Part shown: in pieces, positions 17,576 through 18,935 of the stretch
How positions within the stretch are numbered: position 1 is the stretch's first letter
Layout: every line of letters begins with the position of its first letter
Source: Rhodospirillaceae bacterium
Lineage (GTDB): Bacteria > Pseudomonadota > Alphaproteobacteria > Azospirillales > Azospirillaceae
Direction: 5' to 3'
Assembly (NCBI GenBank): GCA_029267445.1
Contig: JAJUIU010000029.1
Location: forward strand, 1 to 42,885
DNA length: 42,885 nt
Program-made: the position numbers and the translations under genes
The notes under the pieces: model-generated
Database searches by the model: none
Seen by the model: only the letters and a program-made list of their open reading frames with translations
What the model was told of the DNA's origin: nothing

Positions 17576-18787
17576 CTAGCGCAGTTGCGCGCCCTGTCCC
17601 GGCACCGGAGAGGGGGCGGGGCCGTTGGCCGGAACCGGCGACGGGGCGGGTCCGGCGGGGACGGCGGCGGGGCCGCCGAAGGGCTGTTCGCGCAGGAGAA
17701 CGATGCTGACCCGCCGGTTGCGCGGTGAGCGCGGGTCCTCCGGGAACAGGTGGTCGCGGTCGGCGCGGCCCGTGACCTCCTCGATGCGGTTCTCGGGCAC
17801 CCCGGCCGCCATCAGGGCGCGCACGCTGGCGTTCGCGCGCTCCGTGGACAGGTCCCAGTTGGTCCGGCTGCTGCCGGCGGCGAAGGGCGTGCTGTCGGTG
17901 TGTCCGCTGACCGACAGCCGGTTGGGCAGCTTGCCCACCGCCTGCGCCACCAGGGCCATCAGCTGGGCCGTGGCGGGAAACATCTGGGCGCTGCCGCTGG
18001 GGAACATGGAATAGCCTTCCTGGTCCACCAGCTGGATGCGCAGCCCCTCGCGCGTCTGGTCGATCATCAGGCTCTGCTGCAGGGACTGGAGTTCCGGCAC
18101 CTGCTGGATGGCTTGGCGGAGCTCAGCCTCGGCGCGCTGGAACTCCCGCTGCTCCAGTTTGCGCAGCTCCTCCTCCAGCTCCTCCTGCTCCTCCGCATCC
18201 AGGCGGCCATCGCCGTCCTTGTCGGCTTCGAAGCGGCCGCCGGACGCCATGGCGAGGCGGGCGAGCGCCTGGTCGACCTGCTCCTGGGTGACCTGCTTCA
18301 GCTCCTCCTGGTCGCCGACGCCGCCGATGCGGTCGCCGTCGCCGATGCCACCCATCTTCTCCTGGTCGGAATAGCCCAGCTTTTCCTTGTCGCCGTCGGG
18401 GCGGCCGCGGGCGCTGTACTTGAAGTCGTCGACCTGCTCCTCCGCGTTCGCGGCGGCGGGCAGGCTGGGGACCGGCACGGTGAGCTGGGGCGGGGAGTTC
18501 TGGTTGATCTGGGCGCCGTCGACCGTGATGGTCCGGCCGCCCAGCACGCCACCCGCACCGCTGGCCTGCTTCGACGGGCTGGCCGGACTGAAGTAATCGG
18601 CGATGCCCATCTTCTGTTCGGAGGTGGTGACGTTCAACAGCCAGAGCAGCAGGAAGAACGCCATCATGGCCGTCACGAAATCGGCATAGGCGACCTTCCA
18701 GGCGCCGCCGTGATGGCCTTCGCCGCCCTTCTTGATCTTCTTGATGATGATGGGGGCCTGATTGCCCCCGCCGCCGCCGCCTGCCAC
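17576..18787 (-). CDS. motB: MotB-like flagellar stator protein with inserted EF-hand loop
   Basis: MotB anchors the ion-channel stator to peptidoglycan. The 403-residue protein (E. coli has 308) has GGAWKVAYADFVTAMMAFFLLLWLL at 27-51, with ion-binding Asp36, and a C-terminal OmpA-like domain (SGHTDSTPF, SSRTNWDLSTERANA, NRRVSIVLLRE). Between them is an insert of about 100 residues with a Gly/Asp-rich stretch and a canonical 12-residue EF-hand loop, DKDGDGRLDAEE (189-200), running into an acidic coiled-coil helix. A Pro-rich tail ends the protein. GTG 18787 is preferred because it gives the family-typical start MAGGGGGGNQAPIIIKKIKKG. No motA or other flagellar gene is adjacent. Confidence 0.88.
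   Translation of the reverse strand: MAGGGGGGNQAPIIIKKIKKGGEGHHGGAWKVAYADFVTAMMAFFLLLWLLNVTTSEQKMGIADYFSPASPSKQASGAGGVLGGRTITVDGAQINQNSPPQLTVPVPSLPAAANAEEQVDDFKYSARGRPDGDKEKLGYSDQEKMGGIGDGDRIGGVGDQEELKQVTQEQVDQALARLAMASGGRFEADKDGDGRLDAEEQEELEEELRKLEQREFQRAEAELRQAIQQVPELQSLQQSLMIDQTREGLRIQLVDQEGYSMFPSGSAQMFPATAQLMALVAQAVGKLPNRLSVSGHTDSTPFAAGSSRTNWDLSTERANASVRALMAAGVPENRIEEVTGRADRDHLFPEDPRSPRNRRVSIVLLREQPFGGPAAVPAGPAPSPVPANGPAPSPVPGQGAQLR
18188..18223 (-). other. EF-hand calcium-binding loop within motB
   Basis: These 36 bases encode Asp-Lys-Asp-Gly-Asp-Gly-Arg-Leu-Asp-Ala-Glu-Glu. Acidic residues occupy loop positions 1, 3, 5, 9 and 12, Gly position 6 and a hydrophobic residue position 8, which is the full canonical EF-hand pattern. 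The following residues form a strongly acidic helix. Only one loop is evident. Confidence 0.8.
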
Positions 18788-18935
18788 GGAGTTTTTCCGC
18801 CCGGTTTCGTCGCGCGGAAGTGTAGCGTTCGCGGCCCGTTCACAAAAGGGATTAATCACGGCGGTGCGGCATCTTGCGCCAGCTTCGCCGGTCGGCTAGT
18901 CCCAGGGGTCCCGTGGCCAGGAGCGAAGCGCCCCC

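Follow-up and report, generated by a model that had tools for sequence, protein, structure and literature searches.

In the model of Salmonella MotB set out in PMC9093738, helix alpha1 of the periplasmic domain rearranges from a compact to an extended state, thereby withdrawing the plug and making peptidoglycan binding accessible; the L119P substitution is reported there to disorder alpha1, with the MotB fragment then binding peptidoglycan, and the trigger of the alpha1 rearrangement is stated to be unknown. For Bacillus subtilis MotS, PMC11853200 has Na+ driving a coil-helix transition just before alpha1, and the terms EF-hand, calcium, Ca2+, and divalent do not occur in its main text. Here we describe a MotB with a putative calcium-binding loop directly in front of alpha1, the conservation of which suggests that calcium helps set the motor state in the species that carry it.

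The window, that is, the whole stretch of 42,885 nucleotides that was analyzed (contig JAJUIU010000029.1 of assembly GCA_029267445.1, from a Rhodospirillaceae bacterium), holds the motB gene whose features are collected in Table 1; an in-frame GTG at 18859 is an alternative start that would give a product of 427 aa. Pfam searches with the 403-aa product returned MotB_plug (E 7.4e-19) and OmpA (E 3.3e-13), and the channel Asp was invariant in a 20-row alignment of loop-bearing MotBs (A3), in agreement with a first-pass annotation of this DNA that had seen an otherwise normal MotB with Asp36 and an OmpA domain. Plug, OmpA domain, and channel Asp occur in one chain together with the periplasmic fold of a known MotB: the best Foldseek match of the structural model was the periplasmic domain of Salmonella MotB (2zvy_A; E 2.0e-17; TM score on the target, 0.83). 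Judged by sequence and model, the protein is a MotB stator subunit of a type widespread in Alphaproteobacteria. None of the best 25 of the 34 matched NCBIfam models was reached at its own cutoff, the best MotB model being NF006548 (259.6 versus 277). The neighboring genes scanned were nonflagellar (circularly permuted ATP-grasp, Alpha-E, arginyl-transferase, flavin reductase, penicillin amidase, and aldehyde dehydrogenase), and a scan for promoters and terminators around motB found none. The additional stretch of some 100 residues to which the annotation had drawn attention did not prove special, because linkers of 112 to 140 aa were present in all 17 loop-free rows L015 to L031; the long linker was therefore rejected as a novelty.

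Table 1. Features of the motB gene and its predicted product, with positions counted from the first nucleotide of the window
Feature	Position	Strand	Remarks
motB	17576..18787	-	GTG start 18787, stop 17576-17578; product 403 aa
Transmembrane helix and plug, residues 16-68	18584..18742	-	Pfam MotB_plug; model helices 29-53 and 56-66
Asp36 codon	18680-18682	-	Within WKVAYADF
Long variable linker, residues 67-188	18224..18589	-	Mostly low confidence in the model; low conservation
Putative EF-hand-type calcium loop, residues 189-200, DKDGDGRLDAEE	18188..18223	-	Same loop type in Desertibaculum and in 19 further genomes of the family
Helix alpha1 of the periplasmic domain, predicted to serve as exit helix of the loop, residues 198-229	18101..18196	-	AlphaFold2 model; best structural match 2zvy
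OmpA-like peptidoglycan-binding domain, residues 261-357	17717..18007	-	Pfam OmpA

The loop carries Asp at positions 1, 3, 5, and 9, Gly at position 6, Leu at position 8, and Glu at position 12, and the reading of these residues as a fit to the EF-hand at every ligand position held. This is the full set that defines an EF-hand loop (ligands 1, 3, 5, 9, and 12, Gly6, and a hydrophobic residue at 8), the ligand definition having been checked against the available part of a paper on Dx[DN]xDG and EF-hand loops (PMC3123361). At the level of profiles, the outcome was mixed: all 20 loop-bearing MotBs of A3 matched EF-hand_1 at an E value of 1 or lower, but the match of the window MotB itself was weak (12.9 bits, E 0.085, versus a curated cutoff of 25.4). 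When proteins were scanned singly, 1 of 11 loop-bearing proteins, including the window MotB, lay above that cutoff, namely, the orthologue L007 (26.1 versus 25.4), and the nine other loop-bearing MotBs scanned did not reach it. A sequence search of the PDB with the window MotB brought up parvalbumins at E values of 0.24 to 0.86. EF-hands are usually, but not obligatorily, paired within a chain; such pairing was not found here, since each of the 19 distinct loop-bearing MotB stretches had one strict loop. Elsewhere in the same genome, contigs C169, C127, C64, and C50 hold several frames with at least two EF-hand_5 matches each, and this species therefore probably uses EF-hands in other proteins as well.

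A chance match to the motif in an acidic, glycine-rich linker was also weighed, in favor of which D, E, G, and K are abundant in these linkers. Each linker in a set of 129 distinct MotBs with a recognizable linker of at least 20 aa (others were dropped) was shuffled 4,000 times; 0.0075 loops were expected, versus 21 strict-pattern linkers seen, which, being related, do not count as 21 independent events. The linker of the window MotB itself gave a strict loop in 0 of 4,000 shuffles. Together with the conservation of the ligands and two origins at one place (see below), these results make a chance origin so improbable that we regard it as ruled out.

In an AlphaFold2 model built from a 49-sequence alignment, a helix at residues 168 to 183 is followed by the loop and by a long helix from residue 198 to residue 229 that corresponds to alpha1, and a model of a 77-residue fragment had the same layout. 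Block means of pLDDT were 88 to 98 for residues 201 to 360 and 56 and 68 over the loop; pLDDT was below 50 over most of residues 67 to 158 of the linker. Since the long helix starts at residue 198, which is loop position 10, the loop would have its exit helix from position 10, as in EF-hands, and that helix is predicted to continue as alpha1. The acidic helix that had been reported to follow the loop is predicted, by the AlphaFold2 model and the fold match, to be alpha1 itself. The possible entering helix at residues 168 to 183 of the window MotB is set off from the loop by an SGGRF stretch, and by eye no obvious entering helix was present in the Nitrospirillum and Desertibaculum sequences. 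A fold search with the EF fragment gave no significant match (best E, 3.9), chains of calmodulin complexes being among the few hits at E values of 3.9 or more. Because the entering helix is weak, no fold match was significant, and Pfam scores mostly lie below the cutoff, we call the element an EF-hand-type loop with a predicted exit helix. In A3, the window MotB stands apart from all 19 other rows by three additional residues that separate the loop from alpha1 and that would turn its loop on the helix.

In a search of the order, 79 of 82 genomes matched a loop-plus-alpha1 profile (A1) at an E value of 1e-8 or lower, and the loop was read in 20 of the 82 (the genome of the window, 7 genomes of g2, 1 of g3, 10 of g12, and 1 of g13); genome G045 of g12 had no A1 match and one weak whole-protein match (E 5.9e-8). 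The carriers are the genome of the window, Nitrospirillum, Niveispirillum/Aerophototrophica, and two further genera, and most genera of the order are without the loop. Further genera of this family are entirely without it, a call that rests on 34 loop-free family loci read, with the remaining genomes of g11, perhaps Azospirillum proper, judged by a best match that starts at profile position 26 or later; genome G002 may be Rhodospirillum (Rhodocista) centenum. Named carriers at loci L116 to L128 are Aerophototrophica crusticola, alpha proteobacterium AAP38, Niveispirillum irakense, N. lacus and SYP-B3756, Azospirillum sp. strains RU38E and B4, a pond metagenome-assembled genome labeled Azospirillum, Nitrospirillum viridazoti, N. 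amazonense, and N. iridis; these overlap with the family genomes counted above, the g12 stretches being identical to L116 to L122. The loop was also carried by Desertibaculum subflavum (L145). In the NCBI taxonomy, Niveispirillum and Nitrospirillum are placed in Azospirillaceae, Aerophototrophica in Rhodospirillaceae, and Desertibaculum in Sneathiellaceae. The class was sampled with 385 genomes, of which 192 matched, with the best loci among those listed and 39 fetched stretches being read, and the phylum with 398 genomes, of which 130 matched, with 28 loci assessed by pattern count only; further gains of the loop beyond these samples may have been missed. Five alphaproteobacterial MotBs (L138, L149, L168, L172, and L198) have partial, ligand-poor look-alikes before alpha1, e.g., DKAADGNVDEAA and DKPDDGTIDESA, which are not EF loops and are perhaps decayed or forerunner loops. 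In the Nitrospirillum MotBs (L036 to L042 and L123 to L128), EGERLNLVD stands in place of the widely conserved MotB strand EGLRIQLVD.

Across the 21 loops (20 family genomes and Desertibaculum), positions 1, 5, 6, and 12 were invariant, position 3 was N in 19 and D in 2, position 8 was V, L, or I, and position 9 was D in 20 and S in 1, and positions 2, 4, 7, and 11 varied. The conservation of the loop acids among relatives, on which the first-pass annotation had staked its reading, was thus found inside the clade. The codons of the ligands vary synonymously (D1, GAC in 16 and GAT in 5; E12, GAG in 15 and GAA in 6). In ten representatives, columns D1, D5, and G6 had an identity of 1.0, versus a mean of 0.51 for the linker upstream, taken over the 71 columns filled in at least 6 of the ten rows. 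Conserved ligands amid drifting neighbors are the pattern that selection on the ligands would leave, and this comparison supports a real EF-hand-type loop with conserved ligands. We also considered the possibility that no metal is bound and that the segment serves simply as a charged linker or as an acidic N-cap (G-x-hydrophobic-D-E) for the helix. Some loop-free relatives do have G-x-hydrophobic-[DS]-E-x-x-L before alpha1 (GSLSEEEL in L160 and GKLDEEEL in L159), and the ligand-poor look-alikes of L138 and L198 point the same way; a cap, however, needs none of D1, D3, D5, and E12, which are nevertheless kept in 21 of 21 loops (as N or D at position 3). Moreover, all fetched sequence held 211 distinct A1-matching stretches, one of which (L291/L293) belongs to a different EF-hand protein; among the remaining 210, 19 had the strict loop and 191 did not, and a loosened loop pattern fitted just 1 of these 191. 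A metal-free role is accordingly very unlikely in our estimation.

In a quick tree of 135 rows, the 20 family rows with the loop formed one clade (SH-aLRT, 98), and, given the starred branches, the trait must have changed twice; in a more careful tree of 50 rows, the 13 family loop rows again formed one clade (99/96.8). Forcing Desertibaculum into the family loop clade of the 50-row tree was rejected (lnL difference, 76.9; p-AU, 2.5e-120), the 50 rows having been chosen by hand and the tested grouping picked after the quick tree. A shared origin of the Desertibaculum and family loops was ruled out on this test, which was run on a tree built without the linker and is still compatible with an exchange of the linker alone. 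L190, the sister of Desertibaculum, aligns through alpha1 and is without the loop. Because the family loops form one clade, the joint grouping is rejected, and L190 is loop-free, the loop appears to have arisen at least two times, each time directly before alpha1. Subject to the linker-free tree, then, the Desertibaculum loop is in the same place and, by its sequence placement, of separate origin.

The absence of a neighboring motA had been taken as support for a specialized or auxiliary stator. A MotA frame of 297 aa lies on a different contig (C140) of the genome of the window, and fetched loci were scanned with this MotA. In the family, 23 loop-bearing loci with longer flanks (L007 to L014, L033, L035, and L116 to L128) had no motA beside them, and neither had 9 such loci with a flank of only about 0.3 kb (L036 to L044). 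Among loop-free loci, it was missing in 15 of 17 (L015 to L031; present in 2) and in all 34 of Caulobacteraceae type and was present beside 23 of 32 other named loci, and the loop-bearing motB of Desertibaculum has an adjoining motA. The loop and an unlinked motA go together inside the family clade and are uncoupled outside it. A tie between the loop and the missing motA is ruled out by the loop-free loci without motA and by Desertibaculum with it, and the missing motA does not support an auxiliary stator. The same genome holds on C16 (L002, L078, and L084) a second, linked MotA-MotB-like pair, with a 289-aa MotA frame and an OmpA-type partner, which by sequence suggests a second stator set, and either set could be the main stator; on C78 (L003 and L006), two short MotB-like frames of 253 and 227 aa adjoin each other.

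The loop lies where alpha1 begins, at the point held to decide activation, and it is plausible that Ca2+ acts there on activation or on peptidoglycan binding. We propose that periplasmic Ca2+ would bind the loop and would thereby fold and cap the first turns of alpha1, that the capped start would stiffen the link between the plug and the OmpA domain, and that Ca2+ occupancy would shift the balance between a compact, inactive stator and an extended, anchored one, because alpha1 must rearrange for unplugging and for reaching the cell wall. Such a bias of MotB between the two states is, in our judgment, about evenly poised between holding and failing. Nearly as likely as a sensor is a purely structural clip, in which Ca2+ is always bound and stabilizes the start of alpha1 or the dimer but senses nothing; taken by itself it is a serious possibility, short of an even one. 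Structure stabilization is common for such sites, and the motif can bind Ca2+ without a canonical entering helix, according to the available part of PMC3123361; the loop, moreover, has no clear entering helix and no partner within its chain. Against a clip, the loop sits at the presumed conformational switch and outside the rigid core, and sister lineages manage without it. It is also conceivable, but improbable, that Ca2+ sets the ease with which the joint between linker and alpha1 unfolds under torque, which would make the loop a mechanical element of load-dependent stator remodeling and not of activation. The loop does lie within the chain between the membrane helix and the cell wall anchor, and B. 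subtilis MotPS is described as load dependent in the accessible portion of PMC5380961, but by sequence this mechanical role looks the same as Ca2+-dependent activation.

To return to a calcium-biased stator, MotB is a dimer in other species, so that each stator unit would carry two loops at one level, which might be paired. A stronger proposal, which we consider rather doubtful, is that the two EF loops of the dimer form a small, paired calcium lobe at the base of alpha1, through which external Ca2+ directly sets the extension, unplugging, and anchoring of the stator, a sensor within the motor itself that would have evolved at least two times in Alphaproteobacteria. If calcium does bias the stator state, adding or chelating Ca2+ would provide a reversible handle on the alpha1 activation step in a natural MotB, and in Niveispirillum, Nitrospirillum, and their relatives periplasmic calcium would act on motility directly, bypassing gene regulation.

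Neither an EF-hand MotB nor any other EF-hand stator was described in the open-access literature searched, where EF-hand and MotB co-occurred only in the reference list of one paper, in line with what the annotation had surmised; for EF-hand with PomB, stator, or flagellum, the word EF-hand was absent among the best 10 of 98 matches listed. Since L007 lies above the PF00036 cutoff, databases may already record the domain, though without remark. Zorya ZorB, which was among the fold hits, was rejected as a calcium parallel, Ca2+ occurring once in PMC11890865 and there in a nuclease assay only. Paenibacillus TCA20 MotA1/MotB1 is alike in being a stator once linked to Ca2+; according to PMC11940548 and PMC8076557, however, the proposal there was that Ca2+ is the coupling ion, and H+ is indicated by later work; the word EF-hand is absent from the two TCA20 papers searched. 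The proton-type MotB of Salmonella and Escherichia coli (2zvy, 2zov, and 5y40) is alike in its plug, linker, alpha1, and OmpA-like domain but has no known EF-type loop, the sequence matches starting at window MotB residues 197 to 208, past most of the loop. With EF-hand and Dx[DN]xDG loops (PF00036 and PF13202), the MotB loop shares the 12-residue length, all ligands, Gly6, the hydrophobic residue at 8, and Glu at 12 at the start of the exit helix; it differs from them in having a single loop per chain, a weak or absent entering helix, and the setting of a motor subunit. B. subtilis MotS, which is Na+ driven (9ljk, 9ljl, and 9ljm), is alike in having a cation-responsive segment directly before alpha1 (PMC11853200) and differs in that the cation is Na+, with D70 and E75 across the dimer; by analogy, the Ca2+ loop could do for the start of alpha1 what has been proposed for Na+ in MotS.
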